A stretch of DNA of 27,702 bases from the NCBI GenBank assembly GCA_003563255.1, contig PWSL01000036.1:1-27702 (forward strand). The letters run 5' to 3'. Origin of the DNA: Desulfonatronospira sp. Its GTDB lineage: Bacteria; Desulfobacterota; Desulfovibrionia; Desulfovibrionales; Desulfonatronovibrionaceae. How positions within the stretch are numbered: position 1 is the first letter of the stretch; each line of letters starts with the position of its first letter. A program made the translations under genes and the position numbers. The notes below the pieces were generated by a model. The model saw nothing but the letters and a program-made list of their open reading frames with translations. It did no database searches and was not told where the DNA came from. Positions 2-27,495 of the stretch are shown piece by piece.

Positions 2-152
2 GTATCTGTTTAGCGCTTTCAAGGAAAGCAGGGGACAGGCACTCCGGGACCCACTTGAGCATCATTTTGTGCTTAAAATATCTCATTTTTTGGGACAAGT
101 GGGTCCCGGAAAAGCCAGTCCCCATGCCACATGCAAAGCGCTAAACAGATAC
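2..152. repeat. Type A palindromic element, inner stem 1
   Basis: The ends are an 18-bp perfect inverted repeat, GTATCTGTTTAGCGCTTT at 2-19 and its complement at 135-152. Inside each arm lies a GGGGAC shoulder (GGGGACAGGCACT on the left, AAAAGCCAGTCCCC on the right), then a long inner stem CCGGGACCCACTTG / CAAGTGGGTCCCGG around an A+T-rich loop. The left arm continues AAGGAAAGCA and the right arm TGCCACATGC, so the two arms are distinguishable. It is the best preserved A element here; near copies lie at 7076-7226 (inverted) and 22814-22965. The 60-codon reading frame across it is an artefact of the repeat. Confidence 0.93.
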
Positions 153-200
153 AAAACAAGAACAATTTCGAACAGAGACGGGGTTTCAGCGCCTGGTACG

Positions 201-247
201 GGGACTGTCCCCGCTAAGAACCAACCAGATCAAAGGCAACCAGTTTT
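201..247 (+). repeat. 47-bp perfect inverted repeat, left copy
   Basis: These 47 bases recur without a mismatch, in inverted orientation, at 5863-5909. The unit begins with the palindrome GGGACTGTCCC and continues CGCTAAGAACCAACC. The pair flanks the NlpC/P60 gene, maf, pgpA and pgi. The rest of 153-396 holds only a G+C-rich hairpin (304-318) and no gene that I can support. Confidence 0.93.
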
Positions 248-396
248 TTGAAGAAAAGGCTGGAGCCTGGGAACGAGGGGTATAAGTTACTTATAGGTTC
301 GGTCCCGGGCCGCCCGGGTAAGACGCATTTAACTCTCAAGATGGTTATCCAGTCCCCAGAAGTCAAGGGCTGAACGGCTCGAACCCTTCATATGCC

Positions 397-1770
397 TCAA
401 TTCGGCCGGTCCACCACAGTGGTCATATGAGTCACCCGGTTGATAAGCAGCCCCCGGGGTTTGGCCAGGTTGTGCATCTCCCGTCCCGGCTCCAGGGATG
501 TAATGACAGTACGCCCGATTATGTGCCTGCCGTCCGCCAGCTGCCAGGCCCTGCTGGTCCTTAAGCCCCACATGGAATGATACACCACTGGATGCCCGTT
601 TTGGGGATCCTCACCCAGATAGAGCATAACATGTCCCGGCATGTAAAGTATACTCAAAAGAGGTCTGCCTTTATCCTGTATTATCTGCAGCTTCTCCTCT
701 CTTTGCAGCCCCTCCAGGGACGAAGGCTCCCTGAAATCCCTTTGCTGGGCTGAATTGCGTGGCAGAAAGATACCGAACATTCTGTACAGATCCTGCAGCA
801 GAGACGAGCAGTCCCGGTTTTCATACATACCGCCCCAACCATATGGTCGCCCCAGCATGGAATCCATCAGGCCCGCAAAGTTGTCTCCAGTAGGACGCAT
901 GGGGATCTTTTGCAGCACACCCTGAAGGGTCTTCCCAGGAACCAGCCGTGCATATCCGTATTTATCCCGCACCGGCACCAGTAAGCCCTGCCCTTTTTCT
1001 GAACAGCCCAGCGGGTCCTGAGGCAGCACCATGCCCACCCGTCCGTTAAAGACAAAACCGCCTTGAGCGGTCAGTACCGGAACCTGGTCCTGTGCAAAGC
1101 CCATCAAAGGGCTGGATTTAAAACTCTGCACCAGGTCTCTATGGACAAGGGCCAATCCCGACCACTGCACCCATCCCGCCGCGTATTCCGTTTCCACCAG
1201 GGCCCACTCAGCGTCCCTGGTCTGGTGGGTAATGAGTACCGGGGTTCCTGCCGGGACCAGGCTGTTTTGCATGTAATCAAAGGGGAAGCCCTCTCCCGGT
1301 GCCCCTGGTTTTAAAAACACCGGAGACCTGGAAGGCAGGACCCGCATGTCCACGTTATCCACCGTCACCGCCCGATCATGCCGGGAAGGATATCCGGAAA
1401 TGTCAGAATTCCTGTACATTTTACCAAGCCATTCATGGGTTACCGGCAGATAGTTTTCAGCGTAAACATCACGGCCCCTGATGAAATCAAACCCCCAGAA
1501 GACACTTGCAGCGTCGAATTTGGGCTCTGACCTGAACCATGGCCTGAAATGCATTTCGCGGAAATCCTGGTAAAGCTCCTCCTGCTTTCCAGGAGGCATG
1601 ACCTCCCTGGACAGTTCCGGAATATAATAGGCGCTGCTCTGAGGCAAAACCTCCAGGTCCCTAACCATTCCCTCCTGCCTGGGAGCGCAGGCTGCCGACG
1701 CCAGGAACAGGACCAGCAAGGCCGGGATTAAAACGCCTTTCTCAATAAAAAATGTATTGTCTTTGCTCAT
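397..1770 (-). CDS. SH3-domain NlpC/P60 lipoprotein, putative cell-wall endopeptidase
   Basis: This 457-residue protein begins with a lysine-containing head, a hydrophobic stretch (residues 13-27) and a likely lipobox ending SAAC at Cys28, so it is probably a lipoprotein. Residues about 135-290 look like two bacterial SH3-type segments (VDNVDMRVLPSRSP is the typical entry). The C-terminal third is an NlpC/P60 papain-like fold: nucleophile Cys321 in NRDCSSLLQDL, His380 in PGHVMLYLG, and a third polar residue near His393 or His398. Families of this make-up cut stem peptides in peptidoglycan (D-glutamyl-diamino acid bond); the exact substrate here is inference. It is a single gene divergent from maf. 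The ATG lacks a strong ribosome site, and a promoter-like pair ends only a few bases upstream (see 1780-1809). Confidence 0.88.
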   Translation of the reverse strand: MSKDNTFFIEKGVLIPALLVLFLASAACAPRQEGMVRDLEVLPQSSAYYIPELSREVMPPGKQEELYQDFREMHFRPWFRSEPKFDAASVFWGFDFIRGRDVYAENYLPVTHEWLGKMYRNSDISGYPSRHDRAVTVDNVDMRVLPSRSPVFLKPGAPGEGFPFDYMQNSLVPAGTPVLITHQTRDAEWALVETEYAAGWVQWSGLALVHRDLVQSFKSSPLMGFAQDQVPVLTAQGGFVFNGRVGMVLPQDPLGCSEKGQGLLVPVRDKYGYARLVPGKTLQGVLQKIPMRPTGDNFAGLMDSMLGRPYGWGGMYENRDCSSLLQDLYRMFGIFLPRNSAQQRDFREPSSLEGLQREEKLQIIQDKGRPLLSILYMPGHVMLYLGEDPQNGHPVVYHSMWGLRTSRAWQLADGRHIIGRTVITSLEPGREMHNLAKPRGLLINRVTHMTTVVDRPN

Positions 1771-1779
1771 ACCAGCTTC

Positions 1780-1809
1780 ATTTTACTGCCAATGTTCCGG
1801 AAAAGTCAA
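1780..1809 (-). promoter_or_regulatory. Putative promoter of the NlpC/P60 gene, nearly leaderless
   Basis: Reading the minus strand there is TTGACT (1804-1809), an 18-bp spacer and TAAAAT (1780-1785). The predicted transcription start, about seven bases on, falls within roughly three bases of the ATG at 1770. Either the mRNA is (almost) leaderless, which fits the weak ribosome site, or the match is chance. Confidence 0.4.
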
Positions 1810-1920
1810 AGGTGACGCTCCCCCCTCAAATCTGCAACCTTGATTTTCCCTGCCAAAAAAAATATGCTTTCAGCTTAACTTCAGTGACTTATTCCTGGTA
1901 CCCTGTCACAATCACCTCCA

Positions 1921-2030
1921 GGGACCGGCTCTTTTGCCGCCGGAGAGCACGGCCGTATTACGGTTTGAGTTCGGCAAAAGTGCCTGTCCCCGGTGGTTGA
2001 GGCAATAATTAACACAAAGTTGCGCTGCAG
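1921..2030. repeat. Type B element, left arm missing, inner stem 3
   Basis: It starts at the shoulder (GGGACCGGCTCTTTTGCCG), continues through the inner stem to CGGCAAAAGTGCCTGTCCCC, and ends with the degenerate right B arm AAAGTTGCGCTGCAGG. The outer left B arm is absent. It matches 3789-3931 and 27384-27495 in the same orientation. Confidence 0.85.
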
Positions 2031-2041
2031 GGATAAGGTAA

Positions 2042-2208
2042 GCATTCAGGGGTCCTCAGTGGTAGTTCCTGGCACCAGGCCTGGGGACTGTCCCTGCTAA
2101 GTTATATCTGTGCAGGTTCACACAATTTTGCGTTTGTCATATTTTATTTGTGCAGGATAAGGTGTCGCGTGGACTGTCACCGGGTCGGTTCCGGCACCCC
2201 CTGAATGC
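2042..2208. repeat. Type D element
   Basis: GCATTCAGGGG at 2042-2052 is matched by its complement at 2198-2208. Next to the left end is a unit (GGCACCAGGCCTGGGGAC, then GTCCC) that recurs as a direct copy at 27171-27230. The interior carries two GTGCAGG motifs and a possible promoter. It occupies the gap upstream of maf. Confidence 0.65.
2117..2145 (+). promoter_or_regulatory. Possible maf promoter
   Basis: TTCACA, 17 bp, TATTTT; lies inside the type D element about 110 bp before the maf start. The match is moderate and could be chance in A+T-rich sequence. Confidence 0.25.
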
Positions 2209-2253
2209 TTGCGTAATAAGTATTAATCCTCAAGTACACAAGGATAACAACAT

Positions 2254-2892
2254 TTGAATACTGAACATCCACATTTTAAACAAGGACCATTCAGGAGCAT
2301 CAGGGAGATCATCCTGGCCTCGGCATCGCCGCGAAGGCAGATGCTCCTTGCCACACTGGGCCTGAACTTCCGGGTACTCCCGGCAGATTTGAAAGAACCG
2401 CCAATCGATCCTGGAGAGCAGCCTGGGCATTACGTCCTGGAAATGTCCGGTGAAAAATGCCGGATCATTGCCGAGCAGAACACGGACAGCGTTGTATTGG
2501 GTGCCGACACCGTAGTGGTGCTGGACGGGGAGGTCATGGGCAAGCCTGATTCCAGGGAGCATGCCCTGGACATGCTCCTTCGCCTGCAGGGCAATACACA
2601 CGAGGTGATTACCGGGGTCTGCCTGCAATGCACCCGCATGCAGATTCGGACTAGATTCAGTGTCACTACCAGGGTGGAAATGATACCCGCCGACCAGGAA
2701 ATGCTCCAGGCCTATATCGATACCGGCGAACCCCGGGACAAGGCGGGGGGATATGCCATCCAGGGAGTGGGGGCCTTTTTGATAAGTGCTGTTACCGGCT
2801 CATACACCAACGTGGTAGGACTACCTCTGGACCGGGTCATGCAGGCCCTTTTACAGCTTGAAGCCATTTGCTTGCAGGCTGACAGTCAGTGA
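2254..2892 (+). CDS. maf: Maf-like nucleoside triphosphate pyrophosphatase
   Basis: Hydrolyses non-canonical or excess nucleotides to the monophosphate plus pyrophosphate in the cytoplasm. The 212 residues show the Maf signatures: ILASASPRRQMLL near residue 20, SGEKCR, VLGADTVVVLDG with the catalytic Asp, and DKAGGYAIQG followed by GSYTNVVGLPL. The last block is the YhdE-type variant (dTTP/UTP pyrophosphatase) rather than the YceF type, so the specificity is a family-based inference. The frame opens with TTG at 2254, preceded by AAGGA at a workable distance; no ATG lies upstream of the SASPRR motif, so a TTG start is the best choice. It has its own transcription unit, between type D and type F repeats. 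Confidence 0.93.
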   Translation: MNTEHPHFKQGPFRSIREIILASASPRRQMLLATLGLNFRVLPADLKEPPIDPGEQPGHYVLEMSGEKCRIIAEQNTDSVVLGADTVVVLDGEVMGKPDSREHALDMLLRLQGNTHEVITGVCLQCTRMQIRTRFSVTTRVEMIPADQEMLQAYIDTGEPRDKAGGYAIQGVGAFLISAVTGSYTNVVGLPLDRVMQALLQLEAICLQADSQ

Positions 2893-2953
2893 TTCAACCT
2901 GGTGATTTTTTTCCACGCCACTGCCTGGCAGGCCTGCAACTTCGAACTCCAAA

Positions 2954-3018
2954 GCGGGCTCTGCCCGCAACCCGGGATAAAGAAGTGCTCTTGATCCACA
3001 AATTGGACAGTCCCGCAC
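2954..3018 (+). repeat. Type F repeat, copy 1
   Basis: Begins with the hairpin GCGGGC-TCT-GCCCGC (2954-2968), continues AACCCGGGATAAAGAAGTGC and ends in AATTGGACAGTCCCGC. A direct copy lies at 5765-5828 and a partial inverted one at 22782-22812. The hairpin has no following T-run, so it is not a classical terminator. Confidence 0.75.
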
Positions 3019-3047
3019 TGATTATTACTGCGAACATCCTGCGTTAA

Positions 3048-3115
3048 CACTACAGCGAAACTTAGGTTCTATCACGTTACAAGTGTAATATTTGTCTTAT
3101 AGTGTCCCTTTAGTG
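3048..3115. repeat. Core-less type B element
   Basis: The left end CACTACAGCGAAACTT (3048-3063) and right end AGTGTCCCTTTAGTG (3101-3115) match the outer B arms, but the usual GGGGAC shoulders and inner stem are absent. The 38 bases between are A+T-rich. It sits just upstream of pgpA and carries a promoter-like pair. Confidence 0.6.
3076..3103 (+). promoter_or_regulatory. Possible pgpA promoter
   Basis: GTTACA, 16 bp, TATAGT; the -10 is good and the -35 moderate. It lies within the core-less B element 40 bp before the pgpA start, so the repeat may have donated the promoter (inference). Confidence 0.4.
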
Positions 3116-3141
3116 CTACAGTTGCAAGGAGGTTTTGCAGA

Positions 3142-3645
3142 ATGAATGCTCCTCAAAGTCATATTCAAAGCTTTGGCAAAAACCTGGCCACCCTTGGTCC
3201 CATTGGACACCTGCCTGTTGCACCGGGCACCTGGGGTTCTCTGGCCGCGGTCATTGCCGCACCATGGCTCTTTATCCCCTTGAGTATTCCAGTCAAAATC
3301 CTTGTTCTTGCAGGCCTGTTTATTCTGGGTTCCTGGGCCTGCTCTATTGCCGAAAAGGAATTCGGTGGTAAGGACCCCGGCCAGGCCGTAATTGACGAGT
3401 TCCTTGGGCAGTGGGTTACATTTCTGTTGCTGGCCACCCCCGATATTATCCTGCTGGTTTGTGGCTTTTTTCTGTTCAGGTTCTTCGATATCCTGAAGCC
3501 CTGGCCTGTTCGAAGCTCCGAAAAATGGCTGCCGGGCGGATCATCGGTCATGCTGGACGACCTCCTGGCGGGGATCTACGCCCTGGCCGCACTGGTAATC
3601 CTGGAACGTTTACTGCCGGCAGACATCCTACCCTCCCTGTTGTAG
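3142..3645 (+). CDS. pgpA: Phosphatidylglycerophosphatase A
   Basis: Dephosphorylates phosphatidylglycerol phosphate to phosphatidylglycerol at the inner membrane. The 167-residue sequence has the PgpA landmarks: LPVAPGTWGS near residue 28, the acidic metal/catalytic block KDPGQAVIDEFLGQW near residue 76, and FRFFDILKPWPV followed by DDLLAGIYA. Several hydrophobic segments (about 34-65, 91-115, 140-160) fit an integral membrane protein. AAGGAGG lies about ten bases before the ATG at 3142 and decides the start; the slightly earlier ATG of another frame is a shadow. It is convergent with pgi across a block of repeats. Length and motifs match the family well. Confidence 0.95.
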   Translation: MNAPQSHIQSFGKNLATLGPIGHLPVAPGTWGSLAAVIAAPWLFIPLSIPVKILVLAGLFILGSWACSIAEKEFGGKDPGQAVIDEFLGQWVTFLLLATPDIILLVCGFFLFRFFDILKPWPVRSSEKWLPGGSSVMLDDLLAGIYALAALVILERLLPADILPSLL

Positions 3646-3663
3646 CGGCAGAACCTGAAAAAA

Positions 3664-3787
3664 TGTTGTCTGATCAGCGCTTTGCCTGTATCACGGCTTC
3701 CTTCCCGGAGGCTTACAGCCCGGAGTGGTACCGGCTCTCCCCGCGCTATTTTTTTCAAATATGCTGAAATTATCTATGACAAAAATA
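3664..3787. repeat. Degenerate type A element cut short by a B element
   Basis: The left end resembles the A arm (TCAGCGCTTTGCCTGT). It continues with CCCGGAGGCTTACAGCCCGG and CAAATATGCTGAA, which are shared with 6789-6961. The expected right half is missing: the sequence stops where the B element at 3789 starts. Confidence 0.65.
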
Positions 3788-3788
3788 A

Positions 3789-3931
3789 CACTACAGCGAC
3801 ACTTTATTTAAGCTGCAAGGGGACTGGCTCTTTTGCCGCCGGATAGTCCGGCCGTTTTACGGTATGAGGTCGGCAAAAGTGCCTGTCCCCAGTGGCCGAG
3901 GCGATAATTTATACAAAGTGTCGCTGTAGTG
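3789..3931. repeat. Type B palindromic element, inner stem 3
   Basis: This is the cleanest B copy. A 17-bp perfect inverted repeat, CACTACAGCGACACTTT at 3789-3805 and complement at 3915-3931, encloses GGGGACTGGCTCTTTTGCCG and CGGCAAAAGTGCCTGTCCCC. The arms differ next to the shoulders: AAGCTGCAA on the left, AGTGGCCGAGGCGATAA on the right. It lies between the convergent ends of pgpA and pgi, where its hairpin could also act in 3' processing or termination (inference). Confidence 0.93.
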
Positions 3932-3969
3932 ATAAGTGCAGTAATAGAGAGTCTTCCAGGACCCTGCTG

Positions 3970-5613
3970 CTATTTCCAGTACATTTTTTTCCAGGTATTA
4001 ATCAGTCCGTTGGTGGAGACATCGTGATTCCGCACCGGGGTATCGTCTTCCAGCTCAGGCTCAATGCTTTTTGCCAGAGCCTTACCCAGTTCCACCCCCC
4101 ATTGATCAAAAGAATTGATATCCCAGATGACTCCCTGCACGAATATCTTATGTTCGTACAAGGCAATGAGAGCACCCAGGGTCGCAGGTTCCAGTTCAGG
4201 CAACAGGAGGGAGTTGGAGGGCCTGTTGCCTGGAAAAGTTCTGTGGGGTAATAATTTTTGCAGCTCTTCCTCTGATTTGCCCTGGGACTGCATTTCCTCC
4301 CGGACCTCATCAATGGTCTTGCCCAGCATCAAGGCCTCGGTCTGGGCCAGGAAATTAGCCAGCAAAAGGCGATGCTGGCCGGGGTCGTGGTCCGGCTGGC
4401 GAGCAAAAATGATGAAATCACAGGGAATCATTCTGGTGCCCTGATGCAGCAATTGATAAAAGGCATGCTGACCGTTGGTGCCGGGAGCCCCCCATATAAC
4501 CGGGCCGGTGGCGTAGTCCACCTTTAGTCCCTGCAGGGTGATTCTTTTGCCGTTACTTTCCATTTCTGCCTGCTGCATATAAGCCGGAAAGTCCTCCAGG
4601 TACTGGCTGTAGGGCAGCAGTGCCTGTGATTCGGTCTGAAAAAAATTGGTATACCAGATACCCAGCAGGGCCAGAATAACCGGCATATTTTTTTCCAGGG
4701 GAGCGTTGCGGAAATGCTCATCCATTTCATGTGCCCCCTGCAGCAACTGCTCAAAACGGTGCATACCGATGGACAGGGCAATGGGCAAACCGATGGCGGA
4801 CCACAAGGAAAACCTGCCCCCCACCCAGTCCCAGAAACCAAACATATTTTTTGGGTCGATGCCGAAAGCCCTTACCTTGTCGGTACTGGTAGAGACGGCC
4901 ACGAAATGCCGGGGGATATGATCCTGACTGCCTGCGCTCTGCAGAAACCATTCTTTTGCCCTGGTGGCATTAAACATTGTCTCCTGTGTGGTAAAGGTCT
5001 TGGAGGCTATGATAAAAAGAGTCCTTCTGGGGTCAAGTCCCGCCAGGGTGTTTTCAAGATGTGCCGGATCTACATTGGATACAAAGTAGCTTTTAAGATC
5101 CGGCCGGGCAAAGGCCTTTAACCCTCTGGTGACCATTTTGGGACCAAGGTCCGAGCCCCCGATGCCGATATTGACTACATCCTTTACCGGTTCATTGGTC
5201 CACCCCAGCCAGGTGCCTTCCCTGACCCGGTTTACAAAATCCTTCATCCTGTCCAGCACAGTGTTGACATCCGGCATGACGTCCCGGCCATCCACCATGG
5301 CCGGTCTATTGGAACGGTTGCGCAGGGCCGTGTGCAGAACACTCCTGTTTTCCGTGGTATTGATTTTCGCACCGGAAAACATGCTCTCGATTTTTTCCTG
5401 CAAGTGCATCTCCCTGGCCAGGGCAAAAAGGTAGTCCATGGTCTCCTGCTGTATGCGGTTTTTGGAATAGTCCAGGAATACCGGGCCGGCTTGCAGAGAA
5501 AACCTCGAGAATCTTTCAGGGTCGGCTACAAACATCTCCCGCATATGAGTGTTTTTTATTTTAGAGAAATGATCTGCAAGTTTTGCCCATCCGGGTGCTT
5601 GAGTGGTGTGCAT
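3970..5613 (-). CDS. pgi: Glucose-6-phosphate isomerase
   Basis: Interconverts glucose 6-phosphate and fructose 6-phosphate in the cytoplasm. The 547 residues match the long bacterial form (about 549 in E. coli). Visible signatures are [24 protein letters not shown], the first PROSITE-like block [31 protein letters not shown] carrying the catalytic His, and the C-terminal [11 protein letters not shown] block. I place the start at the ATG at 5613 (MHTTQAPGW) because GAAGGAGAA lies just upstream. The frame stays open another 46 codons, but that stretch runs into the GGGACAGGCAT repeat and is not conserved-looking protein. It is a single-gene unit, convergent with pgpA. Confidence 0.97.
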
Positions 5614-5732
5614 TGTCCGTTCTCCTTCAATTTTTCTGGTTTTACCACCGGCTGGAATGCTCAAGGCATCTTGTGACACGCTCAGCCGCAGACTTGACCT
5701 GGTTGGTATAAAATGATGGAAAGGGAAAGAAG

Positions 5733-5760
5733 GGACAGGCATACCCCGCATTTATTTTTC
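5733..5760. repeat. Left half of a stem-2 element
   Basis: GGGACAGGCATACCCCGCAT followed by a T-rich run is the left shoulder plus inner stem 2. The corresponding right half occurs only at about 6013-6063, with type F and the 47-bp repeat in between, which suggests an element split by later insertions (inference). Confidence 0.55.
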
Positions 5761-5764
5761 TAAC

Positions 5765-5828
5765 GCGGGCGATGCCCGCAACCCAAGATAAAGCAGTGCT
5801 CTTATCCCAATTGGGACAGTCCCCGCCA
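5765..5828 (+). repeat. Type F repeat, copy 2
   Basis: Hairpin GCGGGC-GAT-GCCCGC (5765-5779), then AACCCAAGATAAAGCAGTGC and AATTGGGACAGTCCCCGCC. Direct copy of 2954-3018 with a changed hairpin loop. Confidence 0.75.
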
Positions 5829-5862
5829 CAGTATTTTTTCGTTACTGAAATCTTTAATTCGC

Positions 5863-5909
5863 AAAACTGGTTGCCTTTGATCTGGTTGGTTCTTAGCGGG
5901 GACAGTCCC
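5863..5909 (-). repeat. 47-bp perfect inverted repeat, right copy
   Basis: Exact reverse complement of 201-247, ending in GGGACAGTCCC. Together the copies bracket about 5.6 kb of four housekeeping genes. Confidence 0.93.
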
Positions 5910-6012
5910 ACTGCCAAGCATTGAACCCCCGCCATGGCTTAAATTTTTCTTGTATTTTGTGACAGGGTCTCAGGAGTAAGTCTAAAGGATGTTTGACGGT
6001 TTTTTTTAAATA

Positions 6013-6063
6013 AGTGCGGGGAAAGCCAGTCCCCGTGCCACATGCAAAGCGCTAAAAAGATAC
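6013..6063. repeat. Right half of a type A, stem-2 element
   Basis: AAATAAGTGCGGGGAAAGCC, AGTCCCCGTGCCACATGC, then AAAGCGCTAAAAAGATAC, which is the A right arm with one change. No left A arm adjoins it. Confidence 0.75.
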
Positions 6064-6074
6064 CCCCAGCCGGA

Positions 6075-6776: not shown

Positions 6777-6788
6777 CTTTGCTCCCAT

Positions 6789-6961
6789 GTATCCTTTCAG
6801 TTCTTTGCATGTGGCCCGGTTTCCCGCCCGGAGGCATACAGCCCGGAGAGGCACAGGCTCTCCCCCTCACTTATTCTTTCAAATATGCTGAACTATTCTG
6901 TAACAAAAACAAGTGAGGGGACGCCAAAGCCCTGCTTTTCTTAAATGCGCTTACCAGATAA
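6789..6961. repeat. Degenerate type A element abutting the MobB gene
   Basis: The left end GTATCCTTTCAGTTCTTTGC (6789-6808) aligns with the A arm GTATCTGTTCAGCGCTTTGC. The shoulder is CACAGGCTCT, the inner stem CCCCTCACTTATT / AACAAGTGAGGGG, and the right end a decayed GCGCTTACCAGATA. An extra segment CCCGGAGGCATACAGCCCGG is shared with 3664-3787. Its outermost base touches the ATG codon at 6786-6788. Confidence 0.7.
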
Positions 6962-6975
6962 GCTCCCATGAAGTT

Positions 6976-7075: not shown

Positions 7076-7226
7076 GTATCTGTTCAGCGCTTTGCAAGTG
7101 GCACGGGGACAGGCTCTTCCGGGACCCACTTGTCCCAAAAAATGAGTCGTTTTGAGCACAAAATGATGCTCAAGTGGGTCCTGGAGTGCCTGTCCCCTGC
7201 CTTCCTAAAATACGCTAAACAGATAC
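7076..7226. repeat. Type A element, inner stem 1, inverted orientation
   Basis: GTATCTGTTCAGCGCTTT at the left and TACGCTAAACAGATAC at the right. The interior is the reverse complement of the 2-152 copy (CCGGGACCCACTTG near the left, CAAGTGGGTCCTGG near the right), with the shoulders GGGGACAGGCTCT and AGTGCCTGTCCCC. Confidence 0.92.
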
Positions 7227-7235
7227 CTTTAGAAA

Positions 7236-7289
7236 AATAAGTGCGGAGGTGCCAGTCCCCTGCTTTCCTTAAAAGCGCTAAAAAGATAC
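7236..7289. repeat. Half of a type A, stem-2 element
   Basis: AAATAAGTGCGGAGGTGCC, AGTCCCCTGCTTTCCTTA, then AAGCGCTAAAAAGATAC. Only one arm is present, and it carries the AAGGAAAGCA side (inverted). Confidence 0.7.
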
Positions 7290-8679: not shown

Positions 8680-8689
8680 CCTCACTTAA

Positions 8690-8839
8690 CACTGCAGCGA
8701 AACTTTTCATATACTACTGGGGACACTACTGGGGACAGGCACTTTTGCCCATTGGCAACTGTCAAGTGCTGTAATGTTAAAAATCCAGTCGGCAAAAGAG
8801 CCAGTACCCTGGGAACATAACCAAAGTATCGCTGAAGTG
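8690..8839. repeat. Type B element, inner stem 3, with an internal 12-bp duplication
   Basis: CACTGCAGCGAAACTT at the left and AAAGTATCGCTGAAGTG at the right. The interior is GGGGACAGGCACTTTTGCCC to GTCGGCAAAAGAGCCAGT, opposite in orientation to 3789-3931. ACTACTGGGGAC occurs twice in tandem at 8713-8736, doubling one shoulder. It fills the hisS-aspS gap and ends 28 bp before aspS. Confidence 0.85.
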
Positions 8840-8866
8840 CTGATAATTTTACAGGAAACAGACACA

Positions 8867-16360: not shown

Positions 16361-16673
16361 GTATCTGTTAAATGCTTTTTATATCGCATGGGTACTGATA
16401 CCCCGCACTAATTTTATAAAAATTCTGTCAAACTGAACAGTATAAAAGTTTTTTAACCATTTGTTTTTATTATTTTTTACAGCTGATCAGTATGTCTTTA
16501 AGGCCAGACCAGATATCTATCCAAATTTAAAGACTTTATTTCTTTCAACCAGGAACGAAGAACCAGGAACCAGGAACCAGGAACTATGAACTCTCAAACG
16601 TCAAACATCACTTTAGCAAAATTTGTGCGGGGCTCCAGTCCCCTTCCAGCTCTAATAAAGTGTCGCTGTAGTG
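16361..16673. repeat. Hybrid element: A-type left end, B-type right end
   Basis: The left end GTATCTGTTAAATGCTTTTT is an A arm, followed by a stem-2 left half (CCCCGCACTAATTTT). The right end is GTGCGGGGCTCCAGTCCCC and then AAAGTGTCGCTGTAGTG, a B arm (16657-16673). About 200 bases of unrelated A+T-rich sequence lie between, including the tandem repeat at 16547-16586. This fills nearly all of the 363-bp dxr-rseP gap. Confidence 0.7.
16547..16586. repeat. Short tandem repeat of CCAGGAA
   Basis: AACCAGGAAC appears at 16547-16556, and after ACGAAG the 7-bp unit CCAGGAA repeats three times in a row before CTATGAACT. It lies inside the hybrid element and is likely prone to slippage. Confidence 0.8.
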
Positions 16674-16703
16674 TTAAGTAAAAATATCTGATAACCCCGC
16701 AAG

Positions 16704-20711: not shown

Positions 20712-20713
20712 TG

Positions 20714-21313
20714 TCACTCAGCCCCTTCACCAAGTCCCAGACGGGTGAAGCGCCCGATCTGGATACTTTCCCCCAGAACCACCACCGTGTCGTTGATAAG
20801 GTCTTCTATGCTTTTGGAATCGTCCTTGATATAGGGCTGTTTTATGAGGCAGACTTCCTTGTAATATTTTTCCAGACGACCCTGAATAATCTTTTCGGCT
20901 ATGTGCTCAGGCTTGCCTTCCTTTTCAGCCTGACGCTTATAGAAGTCTTTTTCCTTGTCAACAAGCTCCTGGGGCAGCTGTTCAGGCGTTACGCATACCG
21001 GGCTGGTGGCGGCAACCTGCATGGCCAGATCCCTGGCCAGCTGCTGGAACTGATCGCTTTTGGCCACAAAGTCTGTTTCACATTTTAGTTCCACCAGCAC
21101 TCCAATTTTACCATTGCTGTGGATATATGAGCCTATCCAACCCTCAGAAGTAGCCCGTCCGGCTCTTTTCTGGGCCTTGGAAAGGCCTTTTTCCCGAAGC
21201 CAGGTAATGGCCTTTTCTTCGTCCCCTCCGCTGTCCTGCAGAGCTTTTTTGCAGTCCATCATTCCGGCCCCGGTCTTGTCACGAAGCGCCTTTACTTTCT
21301 GGGCGTCAACCAT
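20714..21313 (-). CDS. tsf: Elongation factor Ts, short form
   Basis: Guanine-nucleotide exchange factor for EF-Tu. At 199 residues it has the N-terminal UBA-like domain ([19 protein letters not shown]) and the TDFVAKS block that enters EF-Tu, but only one core subdomain, as in Thermus and unlike the 283-residue E. coli protein. The end lies before the usual dimerisation module. Three bases separate it from rpsB, and its ribosome site AGGAGGAG is formed by the last rpsB codons. Confidence 0.97.
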
Positions 21314-21316
21314 GTT

Positions 21317-22111
21317 TTACTCCTCCTGTGTATCGTCCTGCATGGCAGGTTCTTTTTCCGTCTGCATTATTCCGGCCCCTGCCTCCTGGTCTTCCAGAGC
21401 CATATCTTCCTGCATTTCCCTGTCGCCGCGTTTGGACATACCTTCCAGGCAGGCATCGGCTATGCTGCCTGCAAAAAGTTTTATGGCCCTGATAGCGTCG
21501 TCGTTTCCAGGAATGACAAAGTCAATAAGATCCGGGTCGCAATTGGTGTCCACCACTCCAACGATGGGTATGTTGAGTTTGCGGCACTCCTTAATGGCGA
21601 TTTCCTCTTTCTTGGGGTCAATGATGAAAGCGGCCCCGGGCAGGGAGTCCATGTCCTTGATACCACCCAGATCGGCATTGAGTTTGTTGGCTTCTCTTTG
21701 TATCATGGCCACCTCTTTTTTGACAAAGCGGTGCACGCTGCCGTCCTCAAACATTTTTTCCAGTGTCTTGAGACGGTCAATGCTTTTGCGGATGGTCTGA
21801 AAATTGGTCAATGTGCCGCCCAGCCAGCGGTTGGTAACGTAAAACATACCGGCCCGTTCTGCCTCTACCTTGATAACTTCTCTGGCCTGCCTCTTGGTGC
21901 CCACAAAAAGGATCTGCTGGCCGGCGGCGACTGTATCCAAAATAAAATCATGGGCGTGCTGGTAAAGCTTTACCGTCTGCTGCAGGTCAATAATGTGAAT
22001 GCCTTTTCTGGACCCGAATATGTAGGGTTTCATTTTCGGATTCCAGCGCTTGGTCTGATGACCGAAGTGCACCCCGGTCTCAAGCATCTGCTTCATGGTT
22101 ACATAACTCAT
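21317..22111 (-). CDS. rpsB: 30S ribosomal protein S2
   Basis: Small-subunit protein S2, 264 residues. The start [18 protein letters not shown] is standard, followed by [22 protein letters not shown]-like [26 protein letters not shown] and [10 protein letters not shown]. The last 35 or so residues are an acidic, glutamine-rich tail seen in several proteobacterial S2 proteins. ATG 22111 has GGGAGGA upstream; the frame runs further into the leader but is not coding. First gene of the long minus-strand cluster. Confidence 0.98.
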
Positions 22112-22209
22112 TAAGATTCCTCCCAAAGGGTTTTTCCTCCGCCCGGTCAACGGCTCTTCAACAACGAAAAGCACCCACAGGGCTTCGCCCGGGCGTGTGT
22201 TTTAAGAAA
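22112..22209 (-). other. rpsB mRNA leader
   Basis: About 98 bases between the predicted transcription start and the S2 start codon. It can form GGGC-GAA-GCCC near 22170-22180 with imperfect extension, and it ends with the GGGAGGA ribosome site. S2 mRNA leaders are autoregulated in other bacteria; I do not recognise a known motif here. Confidence 0.35.
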
Positions 22210-22215
22210 CTTCTC

Positions 22216-22244
22216 TTTATAAGATAAAAATTTATGACTGGCAA
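22216..22244 (-). promoter_or_regulatory. rpsB operon promoter
   Basis: On the minus strand TTGCCA (22239-22244), 17-bp A+T-rich spacer, TATAAA (22216-22221). It is the strongest sigma70-like match before the ribosomal gene cluster, just clear of the B element at 22258. Confidence 0.7.
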
Positions 22245-22257
22245 GTCCCAACATTAA

Positions 22258-22405
22258 CACTACAGCGACATTTTGTGTAAAATATCGTCTCGGCCACCGG
22301 GGACAGGCATCCCGCACTTATTTTAAAATCCGTCAGTCTTCTGTAAGCAAAAGAAGTGCGGGGTGCCTGTCCCCTTCCAGCTCAAATTAAAGTGTCGCTG
22401 TAGTA
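22258..22405. repeat. Type B element, inner stem 2
   Basis: CACTACAGCGACA at the left and AAAGTGTCGCTGTAGT at the right. The order of arms is inverted relative to 3789 (GTCTCGGCCACC on the left). The interior is GGGGACAGGCATCCCGCACT / AAGTGCGGGGTGCCTGTCCC. B arms thus carry the stem that A arms carry at 27244. It lies between the divergent rpsB and rpmE promoters. Confidence 0.92.
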
Positions 22406-22441
22406 TTAGTGTGATTTCAAAAAAAATGTCTGAAAATAATC

Positions 22442-22470
22442 TTGCCAATACCTGTCAGATGTTCTATATA
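22442..22470 (+). promoter_or_regulatory. rpmE promoter
   Basis: TTGCCA (22442-22447), 17 bp, TATATA (22465-22470); start predicted near 22477, 26 bases before the L31 ATG. The -35 hexamer is identical to that of the divergent rpsB promoter. Confidence 0.7.
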
Positions 22471-22502
22471 CTTTGGTCTTTCAAAAATTGGAGGTGACTG
22501 TA

Positions 22503-22712
22503 ATGAAAAAAAATTTACATCCCAGCCTGCACGATACCAAGATAAAATGTGCTTGCGGCAGTGAATTCGAATCCCAATCCACCGCCGGCCGGGAAATCAC
22601 TGTGGAGGTATGTTCCCAGTGTCATCCTTTCTTTACCGGACAGCAGAGGTTTGTTGACTCTGCAGGCCGCATTGACCGCTTCAAAAAGAAATACGGGCAG
22701 GCGGCGCAGTAG
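22503..22712 (+). CDS. rpmE: 50S ribosomal protein L31, zinc-binding form
   Basis: A 69-residue large-subunit protein. Cys16, Cys18, Cys37 and Cys40 (KCACGSEF and VCSQCHPF) are the four zinc ligands of the C+ type, at the same positions as in E. coli. [22 protein letters not shown] is the usual C-terminal block (here split by eye into overlapping short motifs FTGQQR and DRFKKKYG). The start ATG 22503 is set by GGAGGTGA; ten upstream codons in frame are leader. A zinc-independent paralogue, if present, is not in this window. Likely transcribed with prfA and prmC or alone. Confidence 0.97.
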
Positions 22713-22751
22713 GGTTTCGGGATTATCCGCTGATTGAAATTTTCAGAACAA

Positions 22752-22812
22752 GTATCTGTTTAGGGTGGTTCATCAGAATAGTAAGTGCGGGACTGTCCCA
22801 ATTTGGTCAAGA
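22752..22812. repeat. Fragments of A arm and inverted type F repeat
   Basis: GTATCTGTTTAG at 22752 is an isolated A-arm start, followed by AGTGCGGGACTGTCCCAATT and GTCAAGAG, the reverse complement of the type F end. It abuts the full A element at 22814. Confidence 0.6.
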
Positions 22813-22813
22813 G

Positions 22814-22965
22814 GTATCTGTTTAGCGCTTTTAAGGAAAGCAGGGGACAGGCAACTCCGGGACCCACTTGAGCATCAATTTGTGCTCAAAATGACTCGAT
22901 TTCTGGGACAAGTGGGTCCCGGAAGAGCCAGTCCCCATGCCACATCCAAAGCGCTGAACAGATAC
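22814..22965. repeat. Type A element, inner stem 1
   Basis: GTATCTGTTTAGCGCTTT at the left, AAAGCGCTGAACAGATAC at the right (one mismatch). The whole 152 bp runs parallel to the 2-152 copy, with scattered substitutions. It fills the rpmE-prfA gap together with the GCGGGC-ACA-GCCCGC hairpin at 22992-23006. Confidence 0.93.
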
Positions 22966-23042
22966 GTCAAGAGTAACTCTTTTCTTTGTTTGCGGGCACA
23001 GCCCGCCTTAGGGATCAATAAACCGCCGAAACGGATTTTAAT

Positions 23043-24113
23043 ATGTTTGCCAAGCTGGATGAACTGGAACATAAATACCTGCAAATAGAAACCGACCTGA
23101 GTGACCCGGAGATATTTTCCAACCATGCGAAATACAAAAAGCTCTCCAAGTCGCACTCGGAACTGGGCCCTATAGTGACTGCATACCGGGAGTACCGGCA
23201 GGTGGTCACAGAGATGGAGGAAAACAGGGAACTTATGAGAGACGCTGACCCCGAGATTCGCGAACTGGCCCGGTCCGAGTTTGAAGGCCTGCAGGAAAAA
23301 AAAGATAAGCTTGAACAGGACCTGAGATTACAGCTTGTTCCCAGTGACCCCCTTGACGACAAGAATATTATCCTGGAGATTCGGGCCGGTACCGGTGGTG
23401 AAGAGGCTGCCCTGTTCGCCGCTGACCTTTTTCGCATGTATTTCAGGTATGCCGAGGAACGTAATTGGAGGGTGGAAATACTCAACATGCAGGAAACTGG
23501 ATCAGGGGGCCTGAAGGAAGTCATAGCCTCCATAGCGGGCAAAAAGGTTTACAGCAGGCTCAAATACGAGTCCGGGGTGCACAGGGTGCAGCGGGTACCT
23601 GAAACCGAATCCCAGGGACGGGTTCACACCTCGGCTGTAACAGTGGCCATCCTGCCCGAGGCCGAAGAAGTGGACGTCAGCATTGATCCCAATGATCTGC
23701 GGGTGGATGTGTTCCGGGCTTCTGGACCCGGAGGGCAAAGCGTCAATACCACTGATTCTGCGGTCCGGATTACCCATATCCCCACCGGCCTGGTGGTTTC
23801 CTGCCAGGATGAAAAGTCCCAGCACAAGAATAAGGCCAAGGCTTTGAAGGTTCTAAGGTCCAGGCTTTTGCAGGTCATGGAGCAGGAGCAGAAGAAGGAA
23901 CTGGATGACAACCGCAGGGCCCAGGTAGGTTCTGGAGATCGCTCCGAAAGAATCCGCACCTACAATTTTCCTCAAAGCAGGGTCACTGATCACCGCATCA
24001 ATCTCACCCTCTACAATCTGGAATCGGTCATGCAGGGGCACCTGGACGGCATTATAGATCCCCTGGTACAGAACCACCAGGCTCTGGCCCTCCAGAATGC
24101 CCAGGCTGCCTGA
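23043..24113 (+). CDS. prfA: Peptide chain release factor 1
   Basis: Recognises UAA and UAG and triggers peptide release. The 356 residues have the codon-reading tripeptide PET (186-188, the PxT position in [12 protein letters not shown]) and the universal GGQ at 230-232 within [19 protein letters not shown] (shown here as the key positions). The N-terminal coiled region and the C-terminal helical end are intact. ATG 23043 gives the normal [12 protein letters not shown] start; the ribosome site is weak. prmC, which methylates the GGQ glutamine, follows at 35 bases. Confidence 0.97.
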
Positions 24114-24148
24114 GCAGTTCCGGGTTTACTCTAAAAGTCTTTTACAAT

Positions 24149-24988
24149 ATGCCGATCATAGCTTCTCTGCTTGCCGGGGGCACCAGTGATTTGATTGAGG
24201 CCGGGGTTGATTCCCCTGGGCTTTCGGCCAGGCTTCTCATGGCTCATGTCCTGGAGTGCTCCTGCGAAAGACTTGTGCTGATATTAGATCAGCAGGCAGG
24301 CAAAAACATTGAAAAGTATTTTCAACGCCTGATTTCACGCAGGGCTGGAGGGGAGCCTGTAGCCTATATTTTGGGGCAAAAGGAATTTTACAGCCTTGAT
24401 TTCAAGGTGAGCCCCGGAGTTTTGATTCCAAGGCCTGAGACGGAGATGCTGGTTGAGCTGACTGGGAGATGGTTCCCCCCCAAACAGGAAATGGTATTTG
24501 CTGACATTGGCACGGGAAGCGGGATCCTGGGGATATGTATAGCCCTCAAGTTTCCCTTGTTTGCCTGTCTGGCCTGTGATATCAGCATGCAGGCACTGGA
24601 GATTGCCCGTGCAAATGCCTGTAAGCATGGTGTGTCTGACCGTATATTATTTTTTAAGGGAGACATGGGGCAGGGAATAATGAATCAGCGCCTTGATTTT
24701 ATTGTCTGTAACCCCCCTTATGTCTGTGCAGATGAGTTTGCTGCACTGGATAAAAGTGTGCGTTGTTTTGAGCCCGCTCTGGCCCTGTTGTCGCCGGATC
24801 AGGGACTGGGACATATAAAAAGGCTGGAAGCAGTGGCTGCACAAGCCTTGCGCAGAGGGAGCCCTTTGTTTCTTGAAATGGGCCACTGGCAGGCCGACCG
24901 TATTCGCGAAATTTTTTCTGGATGGAGAAACTTCCAAATGTTCAGGGACCTGGCAGGCTTGGACAGGGCAGCGGTCATAATTAAATAA
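24149..24988 (+). CDS. prmC: Release factor glutamine methyltransferase
   Basis: Methylates the glutamine of the release-factor GGQ motif, using S-adenosylmethionine. The 279 residues have the helical N-terminal domain (SARLLMAHVL), GEPVAYILGQKEFYSLDF, LIPRPETEMLVEL, the SAM motif DIGTGSGILGI (119-129) and the catalytic NPPYV (188-192). Length is normal. No strong ribosome site precedes ATG 24149, so translation may depend on prfA. The stop runs directly into a B element. Confidence 0.95.
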   Translation: MPIIASLLAGGTSDLIEAGVDSPGLSARLLMAHVLECSCERLVLILDQQAGKNIEKYFQRLISRRAGGEPVAYILGQKEFYSLDFKVSPGVLIPRPETEMLVELTGRWFPPKQEMVFADIGTGSGILGICIALKFPLFACLACDISMQALEIARANACKHGVSDRILFFKGDMGQGIMNQRLDFIVCNPPYVCADEFAALDKSVRCFEPALALLSPDQGLGHIKRLEAVAAQALRRGSPLFLEMGHWQADRIREIFSGWRNFQMFRDLAGLDRAAVIIK

Positions 24989-24989
24989 C

Positions 24990-25150
24990 CTTACAACGAA
25001 ACTTGTTTGTGCCTCAAGGAGGCTGGCTCTTCCGGCACCCACTTGAAGCTGAAAATCAGGCTCCAAAGGCCCAAAAACACATTCAAGTGGGTGTGCCGGA
25101 GTGCCTGTCCCTGATTTAACCAGCACATATTTTATAAGTTGCGTTGTAGG
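24990..25150. repeat. Type B element, inner stem 1
   Basis: Outer arms ACAACGAAACTT and AAGTTGCGTTGT are a B variant. The interior is GGCTGGCTCTTCCGGCACCC with ACTTGAA, pairing with TTCAAGTGGGTGTGCCGG, then AGTGCCTGTCCC: stem 1, otherwise found with A arms. It starts one base after the prmC stop codon. Confidence 0.8.
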
Positions 25151-25302
25151 GATAGAGTTGATGCTGAAAAAAAACAGTTTTTGTTAAAAAAACACAACAG
25201 TTAAAATTTACCCCAAAAATAAAGTTCATAATTTCAGGTAGTTGCTGTTTAGCAATACTGGTACTTTTTTTGCTTATCGGCTTCCAAGAGGAGGAAGCAT
25301 GA

Positions 25303-26226
25303 ATGAGGCAGCAAACCATCAAAAAAGATGTAAAGTGCTTTGGCGTGGGTCTGCACAGCGGGAAAAAAGTCAGTCTACATATGCGGCCGGCTGATGAAGA
25401 CACTGGGTTGGTATTTGTTCACAAAGGCCCGGACGGCTCCAGAAAGCTATATCCCACTCCGCATTCTGTAAAATCCACGGAGCTTGCTACGACCATAGGC
25501 AACGGCGACGTCTCCATAGCTACAGTTGAGCATCTGCTGGCAGCTGTAGCCGGGCTTGGTATAGATAATCTTTACATCGATGTCCAAGGAAACGAGCTTC
25601 CCATAATGGACGGCAGCGCAGCCTCTTTTGTTTTTCTCCTTCGTACAGCCGGCCTGCGCAGGCAGAGAAAACCCCGGCGGATTTTGGGGCTTAGCCGGCC
25701 CCTGGTTTATAAAAACGGGCAGCGCTGGATTAAGGCCGAACCTTACAGCGGCCTCAAGATAAAATATACCATCGATTATTCTCACCCCCTGGTTGGCAAT
25801 CAATCCTACCAATTCGAGCACAATCCCCAGCATTTCGTCAGGTCTCTGGCCAAGGCCAGAACTTTCGGTTTTTTAAAGGACGTGGAAAAGCTGCAAAGTA
25901 TGGGGCTGGCCCTGGGAGGCACCCTGAATAATGCCGTTGTTCTGGACGAGTATGGGGTAATCAATCCTGACGGCCTTCGCTACAGTGATGAGCTGGTGAG
26001 ACACAAGACCCTGGACTTCATGGGAGATATAAGCCTCATGGGGGCCGCCCTATGGGGATCCTTTGAGGTGCACTGCTCGGGACACGCCTTCAACAATTCT
26101 TTCCTTAGGTTCCTGGATGAAAACAGGGATGACTACCTGCACTGGGTGGATTTTGACTGCCTGGATCAGAAAGTGCCTGCATTCGAACCCCAGGGTGCTT
26201 TTCAGCCCCAGCCTGCCTGGGCCTGA
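25303..26226 (+). CDS. lpxC: UDP-3-O-acyl-N-acetylglucosamine deacetylase
   Basis: Zinc enzyme for the committed step of lipid A synthesis, showing a Gram-negative envelope. Of 307 residues, GVGLHSGKKV is near the start. Glu76 and zinc ligand His77 are in ATVEHLLAA, then PIMDGSA, and His234 and Asp238 in DELVRHKTLDFMGD. His261 in SGHAFNN completes the site. The hydrophobic-passage region NAVVLDEYGVIN is also typical. ATG 25303 follows GAGGAGGAAG; an ATG four bases earlier is out of frame. A+T-rich sequence at 25151-25285 probably holds the promoter, but I cannot single out a pair. Convergent with the PHP gene, 22 bp apart. Confidence 0.97.
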   Translation: MRQQTIKKDVKCFGVGLHSGKKVSLHMRPADEDTGLVFVHKGPDGSRKLYPTPHSVKSTELATTIGNGDVSIATVEHLLAAVAGLGIDNLYIDVQGNELPIMDGSAASFVFLLRTAGLRRQRKPRRILGLSRPLVYKNGQRWIKAEPYSGLKIKYTIDYSHPLVGNQSYQFEHNPQHFVRSLAKARTFGFLKDVEKLQSMGLALGGTLNNAVVLDEYGVINPDGLRYSDELVRHKTLDFMGDISLMGAALWGSFEVHCSGHAFNNSFLRFLDENRDDYLHWVDFDCLDQKVPAFEPQGAFQPQPAWA

Positions 26227-26248
26227 AGCCGGAGCTGTTTTTTGATTT

Positions 26249-26893
26249 TCACCAGTGAGTCACTAAAGACCGCATCCACCTGGCTTTCTGCCGAAAGTGC
26301 GGGTTGTGCACAGGCCTGCAGTTTTTGCTCAACAGGGCTTTGACCAGTTCTTCTCTGGAACGTACCGGCTCTGAAAAGAAGGTCCCCACCCTGCCCAACT
26401 CTTCAATGCTGTGGGCATCACTGCCTCCAGTGAGGCTGATTCCATATTTATCATGCCATAATTGGGCCAGGGAATTTTCCAAACCGGAATTTCTGCCGTT
26501 AAGGCCCTCTGCATAGCTTATGATGCCTGATGAAGCCAGTCTTTCATTCACTTTCTGCATTGCCCTGTAAGGGTGCGAGGCTATCATCACTCCCCCCAGT
26601 CTGGTTACCCGTCTGGATATCTCTTCCCCTGGCAGGTAAGGTTCAAATTCCTTCTCAGGTCCAAATATCAGAAAATGTCCGTCCAGGCTGGAATATTCCT
26701 GTCCTATTATGACGCACAGACCGTCCTCCTGGATACCCTCCCGGACCAGGATTCCAGCTTCCAATGTATTGTGGTCTGTAATACAGACTCCGTCCAGACT
26801 CAGGGAGCGGGCTTCTGCAAGGATTTCCTCCAGAGACAGGATGCTGCAGGGGGAGATGCTGGAGTGGACATGCAAATCAAAAAAGCAGGACAC
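26249..26893 (-). CDS. PHP-domain metal-dependent phosphoesterase
   Basis: A 214-residue single-domain PHP protein. Metal-binding motifs: DLHVHSS (6-12), TDHNT (39-43), Glu66 in GQEYS, SHPYR (106-110) and GSDAH near 167-171, followed by a PHP-associated C-terminal part. Stand-alone PHP proteins of this type include 3',5'-nucleoside phosphatases and uncharacterised enzymes; the substrate cannot be told here. The start is GTG at 26893 with GAGG about eight bases before it; no ATG precedes the DLHVHSS motif. It lies 26 bases after the small acidic gene and is likely cotranscribed with it. Confidence 0.9.
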   Translation of the reverse strand: MSCFFDLHVHSSISPCSILSLEEILAEARSLSLDGVCITDHNTLEAGILVREGIQEDGLCVIIGQEYSSLDGHFLIFGPEKEFEPYLPGEEISRRVTRLGGVMIASHPYRAMQKVNERLASSGIISYAEGLNGRNSGLENSLAQLWHDKYGISLTGGSDAHSIEELGRVGTFFSEPVRSREELVKALLSKNCRPVHNPHFRQKARWMRSLVTHW

Positions 26894-26919
26894 GTGGTTT
26901 ACCTCGTTGGGGAAGGAGA

Positions 26920-27147
26920 TTACTCCTTTTCCTTTTTGTCCCCGGTCTCAAACATTTGTCCCAGTTCACTGTTTTTAAAGATTATCCTTGTAGCTGTTTC
27001 ATCGGCCAGCTCGGCCAGGTCCATAAGCCTTTCCAGGTAATCCAGTATTTCCATTCGGCGCTCCTCAGAAGAACATTCAAAGTCCTGCTCGAGGTCTCCG
27101 GACTTGATGTAGTTTTCCAGATCACCTAATAATTTATCGTTGAGCAT
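26920..27147 (-). CDS. Small acidic hypothetical protein
   Basis: I do not recognise this 75-residue protein. It is rich in Glu, Asp and Leu (DYLERLMDLAELADETATR) and looks wholly helical, with a charged tail DKKEKE and a single cysteine at about 25. The ATG at 27147 follows AGGAG at five bases, a good ribosome site, and codon use resembles the neighbours, which supports a real gene. It is immediately upstream of the PHP gene and may be a partner or regulator (inference). Confidence 0.75.
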   Translation of the reverse strand: MLNDKLLGDLENYIKSGDLEQDFECSSEERRMEILDYLERLMDLAELADETATRIIFKNSELGQMFETGDKKEKE

Positions 27148-27170
27148 CAAGACTCCTGTTATGTCGCAAC

Positions 27171-27230
27171 CATTCAGGGGGTCCTCGGTGGTTGTTTACT
27201 GGCACCAGGCCTGGGGACCGTCCCACCAGT
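27171..27230 (+). repeat. Type D repeat, partial direct copy
   Basis: CATTCAGGGGGTCCTC, then GGCACCAGGCCTGGGGAC and CGTCCC: direct match to 2043-2096 with a few changes. The right end CCCCTGAATGC of the 2042 copy is missing; an A element follows. Confidence 0.8.
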
Positions 27231-27243
27231 ACTGCTTGTGCAG

Positions 27244-27383
27244 GTAACTGTTTAGCGCTTTTAAGGAAAGCAGAGGACAGGCACCCCCGCACTTATTTTT
27301 CAGTAATGATCTTCACATCAGCGAAAAAATAAGTGCGGGGAGAGCCAGTCCCCGTGCCACATGCAAAGCCCTAAACAGACTAC
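27244..27383. repeat. Type A element, inner stem 2
   Basis: GTAACTGTTTAGCGCTTT at the left and CTAAACAGACTAC at the right, slightly decayed. The inner stem is CCCCGCACTTATTTTT / AAAAATAAGTGCGGGG with shoulders GGACAGGCAC and AGAGCCAGTCCCC. Confidence 0.9.
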
Positions 27384-27495
27384 GGGACTGACTCTTTTGC
27401 CGCCGGACAGTCCGGGCGTTTTAAGGTTTGAGATCGGCAAAAGTGCCTGTTTCCGGTGGCCGGGGCGATAATTTATACAAAGTGTCGCTGTAGTG
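27384..27495. repeat. Type B element, left arm missing, inner stem 3
   Basis: Begins at the shoulder GGGACTGACTCTTTTGCCG directly after the A element's last base and ends with GTGTCGCTGTAGTG. Same truncation as 1921-2030. Confidence 0.88.

Follow-up and report, generated by a model that had tools for sequence, protein, structure and literature searches.

Intergenic palindromes in the genome of a Desulfonatronospira sp. are modular hairpins, in which outer arms and inner stem-loops form separable layers joined across a common shoulder; this organization, described in an earlier note from the letters of one contig, is confirmed genome-wide. That contig, C71 (27,702 nucleotides, in its entirety; hereafter the window), belongs to a draft genome, G000, of 3,522,783 bases in 532 contigs. 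We favor, at a probability of about 0.7, the reading that these elements are composite miniature inverted-repeat transposable elements (MITEs): shells of the type moved by DDE transposases that surround a REPIN-like core of RAYT/TIRYT type, that would spread in trans, and whose centers would occasionally be exchanged at the shoulders. We describe them as MITE shells with a REPIN-like core because duplications of the target lie at the outer ends, because the motif upstream of RAYT genes resembles the shoulder, and because A·A mismatches in the core are kept. Moreover, duplications are found in every main combination of shell and stem, shell sequence is common to copies with different stems, and relatives have spacers that lack the element.

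Abundance and outer arms

The shoulder pattern GGGGACWGGC has 1,223 exact matches in the 3.5-Mb genome, compared to 28 for a reversed control pattern. The 611 matches on the forward strand correspond to roughly 600 cores in 3.5 Mb, an estimated load of about 90 kb at 150 bp per core. We read 125 stretches of this genome (1,096,723 nt, or 1.10 Mb; 31%), made up of the window, 17 contigs with shoulder matches, 7 chosen for transposase matches, and others numbered consecutively, in which a script found 178 hairpin cores. A core was counted if it had ≤1 mismatch across both 10-nt shoulders, which leaves degenerate cores (e.g., window 24989) outside the 178, and sites with a common right shoulder were collapsed to the innermost core. 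The 153 cores away from contig edges were used to tabulate shells by stem and target duplications by combination; the 25 edge cores were retained in the counts of loops, arm distances, open reading frame (ORF) location, A·A mismatches, and hybrids. Core centers avoid long open frames: only 10 of 178 fall in a stop-free stretch of at least 200 amino acids, compared to 76% of the sampled bases, and thus the initial impression that no element lies within a gene was nearly right. Tandem arrays occur in five stretches (L006, L019, L053, L057, and L148). Within the window, the shoulder with ≤1 mismatch has 30 matches, compared to a mean of 6.4 in 100 shuffles, and three whole elements fold as single strands far better than shuffled sequence (z-scores of -10.1, -10.0, and -7.9).

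The outer arms are the terminal repeats of two unrelated MITE families, A and B/C, plus sub-types. Arm A begins GTATCTGTTTAGCGCTTT, and arms B and C begin CACTACAGCGA(C/A)ACTT. The 18-nt terminal inverted repeat (TIR) of A is GTATCTGTTTAGCGC, with an 8-bp target site duplication (TSD), and the 16-nt TIR of B/C is CACTACAGCG, with a 4-bp NTAN duplication; the commonest TIR-to-TIR lengths are 151 bp (A) and 143 bp (B/C). Two arm types had been proposed; the arms are indeed separable, but the original B comprises two types, B and C, that have the TIR CACTACAGCGAMACTT in common, with C distinguished by GCGAAAC and another interior. The 8-bp duplications of A, at ≤1 mismatch, are found in 31 of 56 cases (0.71 when shuffled), and exact 4-bp NTAN duplications (e.g., TTAT, TTAG, ATAA, CTAA) in 33 of 55 B/C cases (4.93 when shuffled). 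Thus, like MITEs, these elements are short and non-coding, with terminal inverted repeats and target duplications of fixed length, and the arms are probably the TIRs of two or more unrelated families that belong to the DDE-mobilized kind. If this were instead only an ordinary REPIN/BIME population, with arms that are extended REP (repetitive extragenic palindrome) flanks and no second transposase, the high copy number, intergenic location, palindromic form, and presence of RAYT genes would all be expected. However, the 8-bp and 4-bp duplications at the outer ends contradict this idea, as do the unrelated arm sequences and the differing duplication lengths, and we consider it very improbable.

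We interpreted TIR pairs 0.7-3.5 kb apart with an ORF between them as two MITEs on either side of genes. For arm A, a partner of IS66 type was guessed at, but nothing was found for it, and it is not claimed.

Inner cores and their pairing with shells

The core is laid out as a GGGGACAGGC...GCCAGTCCCC hairpin. Most cores carry GGGGACAGGCAC on one side and GGGGACTGGCTC on the other, such that A faces A at position 7 (151 of 178 cores) and position 11 (156 of 178). The proposal that all elements share the GGGGAC shoulder holds, though some copies in the window (e.g., 24989, 27244) are mutated. Inward of the shoulders are stems 1, 2, and 3, each with several loops. As in REPINs, the inverted doublet forms a hairpin, but there is no common GTAG/GTGG head, as the arm consensus before GGGGAC differs between shells; GTGG is confined to the right arm of A and, among bare B leaders, to a few.

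Clustering arms and stems separately across the 125 stretches showed that the layers can be separated at the common shoulder, and that no shell in this 31% of the genome is tied to one fixed stem. Stems 1, 2, and 3 number 20, 22, and 0 in A shells, 0, 6, and 12 in B, and 0, 20, and 7 in C. Among copies with both arms from one shell, stem 1 is therefore found only in A and stem 3 only in B and C, whereas stem 2 is found in all. The earlier note had the layers combining freely; each shell does accept more than one stem, but that wording is too strong because shell and stem are strongly associated (χ2 = 50.7, 4 df, P = 2.5e-10, V = 0.54, with sub-class 2x and 2/? pooled with stem 2, and 1/3, 1/?, and ?/1 with stem 1), and the pairing is structured. 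Two hybrids that have a single A arm apiece (L006:1826, L051:3282) also carry stem 1 with loop 1a, and a stem-1 variant with another loop is found in B/C-type arms (L010:9384, L168:65, and window 24989).

Each of the six main combinations has its own target duplications: A1 (8 of 14), A2 (11 of 20), B2 (4 of 5), B3 (8 of 12), C2 (11 of 17), and C3 (6 of 6), compared to shuffled values of 0.67 of 37 for A, 2.95 of 18 for B, and 2.48 of 23 for C. Thus, the mixed copies are not assembly artifacts. Joining of halves of different repeats during assembly or binning might have been suspected in a draft of 532 contigs, some of which end in elements, but two findings contradict it: in each main combination the duplications at the two ends match, and similar shells and cores are found in three other genomes (G006, G010, and G015). 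We discount it almost entirely.

The shells around different stems are alike. The A1 and A2 arm consensus sequences are identical except for the last base of one arm, and arm distance is 0.160 both within and between the two classes (300 of 500 shuffles reach the difference); the corresponding comparisons gave 85 of 500 shuffles for B2/B3 and 478 of 500 for C2/C3. Since the A1 and A2 shells are indistinguishable, centers have probably been exchanged, most likely at the 12-13-nt shoulders. Among the 103 cores with both arms complete, 89 have a single shell, 12 are hybrids of two, and two have module E on one side. In all 12 hybrids the shoulder letter matches its own arm; thus, the join lies inside the shoulder. 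Loops are also inverted in some A·A-shoulder cores, namely in 11 of 87 of the stem-2 type (a few with stem 3), compared to none of 22 with loop 1 and none of 31 with loop 3i/3ii.

In the composite reading, an ancestral RAYT-type hairpin would have been captured between MITE ends, and whole composites would then have spread in trans by transposases that recognize the outer ends, a step supported by the duplications and by the uniform copies in G006 (below). Copies would occasionally have exchanged stem-loop centers with one another at short homologies across the 12-13-nt shoulders, whether through template switching or through gene conversion, as we infer from the common shells, hybrids, and loop flips, and joins elsewhere, in stems or loops, may have given the half-hybrids and flipped loops. 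Because 12-13 nt is short for RecA-dependent recombination, we prefer template switching at the hairpins.

Repeated directed insertion is a serious rival, possible though in our judgment not probable, that overlaps with this scheme except in the exchange step. Here, ready MITE shells would have received different cores in independent insertions by a Y1 transposase, each time at one and the same base and facing the same way. Nested insertion does occur: in L017 an A1 element with the duplication CTTCGAGT lies inside a B2 arm. Directed insertion would fit the fixed orientation of core to shell (AT in 36 of 43 A, 16 of 18 B, and 26 of 27 C, and TA never), the short-leader cores found outside complete shells (of 12 partial B left arms, 7 stop 7-8 nt short of the shoulder), the different core between different arms in a related genus (G012), and the guide-directed cleavage described for Y1/IS200-type enzymes in PMC8266576. 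Some A shells also lack a core, as does one C shell flanked by TTAT at either end. We rejected core-less shells as proof of pre-insertion sites, as slippage at AAAGC or GCA would account for L064:7150 and L050:4406; L012:5965 and L228 were not assigned to slippage. However, no common insertion target is visible because the sequence at the junction of shell and core differs between shells (AAAGCA, GCCACC, TCAATT), the clustering of partial-arm ends is unclear for A and C, and no orthologous site was seen both with and without a core. Among the three mechanisms proposed at the outset, nested insertion takes place, but center exchange seems to be explained better by recombination at short homologies or by template switching than by insertion time after time.

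A second rival, also overlapping with the composite reading, is cassette exchange catalyzed by RAYT, in which the single-stranded cores of two elements would be cut near the shoulder and rejoined with their centers swapped. PMC8266576 describes in vitro cleavage and recombination of REP strands by TnpA_REP and reports that REPs of Escherichia coli need their mismatch, although group 3 REPs in that work are perfect palindromes; the A·A mismatches kept here recall that need. Nevertheless, the cleavage site cannot be read from the sequence, in some copies the unit seems to end 7-10 nt beyond the shoulder, and the half-hybrid joins fall inside the shoulder at no fixed base. We therefore regard cassette exchange as unlikely, and we are equally doubtful of a mobile element with two engines, with DDE transposases acting at the outer ends and a Y1 RAYT swapping centers like cassettes at the inner shoulders.

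RAYT genes and related genomes

The center looks like a separate, RAYT-linked hairpin family, that is, a REPIN-like inverted doublet of the motif upstream of a Y1 (HUH) transposase gene of RAYT/TIRYT type. Of 47 RAYT copies, 36 (36 of the 40 with ≥45% identity) are preceded by GGGACWG at a distance of 60-130 nt, compared to 71 of 5,000 random windows, and 7 of the 11 copies without it have <30% identity to the query. Among the copies listed, pairs diverge 0-14 nt 5' of GGGACWG. The intact RAYT gene of G000 (L024), whose protein has no helix-turn-helix (HTH) domain in Pfam, has a B half-element close by on its downstream side. We surveyed RAYT matches and shoulder counts across 61 genomes, and found both many RAYT matches and raised shoulder counts in G000, G006, G010, and G012 (14, 39, 39, and 18 RAYT matches, respectively); in G010, one RAYT stretch (L142) holds two cores.

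Several results weigh against the composite reading. An inverted motif downstream of RAYT genes was found in only 2 of 42 cases, compared to 183 of 5,000 random windows, and thus the upstream motif could be regulatory; an early reading as a two-ended RAYT transposon, whose right end was not borne out, was withdrawn. In the same survey, shoulder counts are not raised in G018, G020, G025, G029, and other genomes despite their RAYT matches, while G015 has raised counts and 25 core matches but a single weak RAYT match. No core was found in eight RAYT-chosen stretches of G006 (157 kb), whereas one of two arbitrary stretches had one core. No autonomous element with either TIR was found in the stretches read of G000 or in the complete list of exact A TIRs of G006. 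With regard to exchange, A-arm nearest neighbors have the same stem slightly more often than by chance (24.9 of 42, compared to 20.5), the B right arm alone differs somewhat by stem (25 of 500 shuffles), and no shoulder exchange was caught in the act among the elements read.

Related genomes hold similar elements. In G006, exact A ends form 29 pairs, and 26 of these have a length of 151 bp. Of ten stretches read, nine held complete A elements, eight of them A1 (six nearly identical) and one A2 (L196), and L199 held a fragment; the duplications of the eight A1 elements are perfect 8-bp repeats in five, have one mismatch in two, and are 7 bp in one. A C+2 element is also present (L139). In G010, stem 1 was found in all ten stretches read. 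Selection of the G006 and G010 sets started from pairs of exact ends or from single ends, which biases them to young copies. The eight core matches read among the 25 of G015 include A+1, B+3, and a further stem in an A-like shell. In G012, exact GTATCTGTTYAGCGC and exact CACTACAGCGAMAC were both absent, and the 23 core matches are mostly GGGGACAGGCGAACG...CGTTCGCCTGTCCCC, without the A·A mismatch at position 7; six of eight cores read are flanked by a third arm type, GTCGCCTGCAAAAAGT...ACTTTTTGCAGGCGAC.

We also noted a further exchangeable piece, on one side only: the 31-bp module GGCTTCCTGCCCGGAGGCNTACAGCCCGGAG, between core and right A arm, occurs in 7 of 10 G010 stretches (L200-L202 and L205-L208) and in some G000 copies (window 3674-3742 and 6797-6865, and L034:1629). 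Two G010 elements (L205 and L206; 717 and 514 bp) have A ends, A1-like cores, and long, seemingly non-coding inserts. Several RAYT copies lie within a few kilobases in G006 (L130 and L132), some with in-frame stops near their ends. At L023:5986-6459, the end of a short ORF matches Y1_Tnp positions 62-121, and its start presumably resembles an IS66-type N-terminus. The closest named records of the RAYT protein are contigs of metagenome-assembled genomes with mixed labels, several with sample names like CSSed10 or T1Sed10, which we take to be soda-lake samples; one (L120, 76%) is labeled Desulfonatronovibrio sp.

Elements of the window and comparison with known systems

The window holds complete elements, degenerate elements, and fragments. 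Three elements with A shell and stem 1 were located as first described: 2-152 (+), whose left flank is the contig end and hence allows no TSD test; 7076-7226 (-), with ACAGGC at both shoulders; and 22814-22965 (+), which with its two perfect 8-bp duplications (GTCAAGAG) spans 22806-22973. The rpmE-prfA spacer that holds this last element lacks it in two relatives, G006 and G002. Also borne out were A shell with stem 2 (loop 2iii) at 27244-27382 (+), B shell with stem 2 (loop 2iv) at 22254-22409 (+), and B shell with stem 3 at 3785-3935 (-), with ATAA on both flanks (3785-3788, 3932-3935). Two others that had been called B+1 and B+3 are present but degenerate: 24989-25151 (-) has a B/C-type shell and stem 1 with a different loop (1b) and falls below the core cut-off, and 8686-8843 (+), with stem 3, scores as C on the left and B on the right. 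The fragments are two stem-3 cores of repeat family D1 with a B left arm and no B right arm (1921-2035, -; 27384-27498, -, which abuts the A+2 element), half an A+2 element with right arm, shoulder, and part of the stem (6008-6063, +; families D2/D3), half an A element with left arm and shoulder (7244-7289, -; inverted repeat I9), and half a B+2 element (16615-16679, +; families D6/D13).

Elsewhere in the window, 9 of 10 proteins scanned match known families, mostly housekeeping, and an Rfam scan found only a tRNA. Short palindromes of the type GGGGACTGTCCC(C) recur at 200-212, 2083-2092, 5815-5824, and 5898-5907; two have a similar GGYRCCWGG-like stretch before and GCTAAG after. These palindromes are another repeat family with a similar shoulder. 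A 45-nt intergenic repeat, GCGGGC..GCCCGC plus AGTGCTCTT, occurs at 2948-2992 and 5759-5803 (84% alike).

The elements share with REPINs and BIMEs an inverted-doublet hairpin, intergenic location, hundreds of copies, stem mismatches, RAYT genes, tandem arrays, and a mosaic make-up, but they differ in that most complete copies lie inside MITE terminal repeats with target duplications. With bacterial MITEs such as RUP, NEMIS, and ERIC they share short length, lack of coding sequence, TIRs, TSDs, and high copy number, but they carry an exchangeable inner hairpin that resembles that of another transposase class. TIRYT repeats have GGGGWSAS in common (PMC3733652; PMC6006769), and the upstream motif (G)GGGACAG fits this pattern; TIRtron/TIRYT repeats, too, are reported as dimers (PMC3733652). 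However, such repeats lie upstream of the Y1 gene here with no inverted copy found downstream, and the L024 protein lacks the Pfam HTH of subclass 2.1 TnpA_REP, as the TIRYTs are classed in PMC6006769. The concentric plan itself has precedent, since REP dimers inside longer palindromes are reported for GTAG-15 of Anabaena variabilis and CGTC-1 of Halothiobacillus neapolitanus (PMC3733652). In those cases section 7 of the paper gives one outer palindrome per REP family and does not mention target duplications, whereas here two MITE families have cores in common and each shell has several cores. Cores of RAYT type common to several MITE shells were not described in the titles or abstract openings of the literature searched, a set that leaves most subscription journals outside.

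REP/REPIN elements, which Y1 enzymes move, are usually discussed apart from MITEs, which are mobilized by DDE enzymes. Here the two appear fused, and a similar core is found within arms of another kind in a related genus. These genomes offer a natural system for asking how REP-like hairpins are maintained where their own transposase is scarce or absent, as in G015, and how long palindromes exchange their centers. If both enzymes do act on one element, shell and core would be separately evolving replicators, repeatedly paired with unrelated partners.

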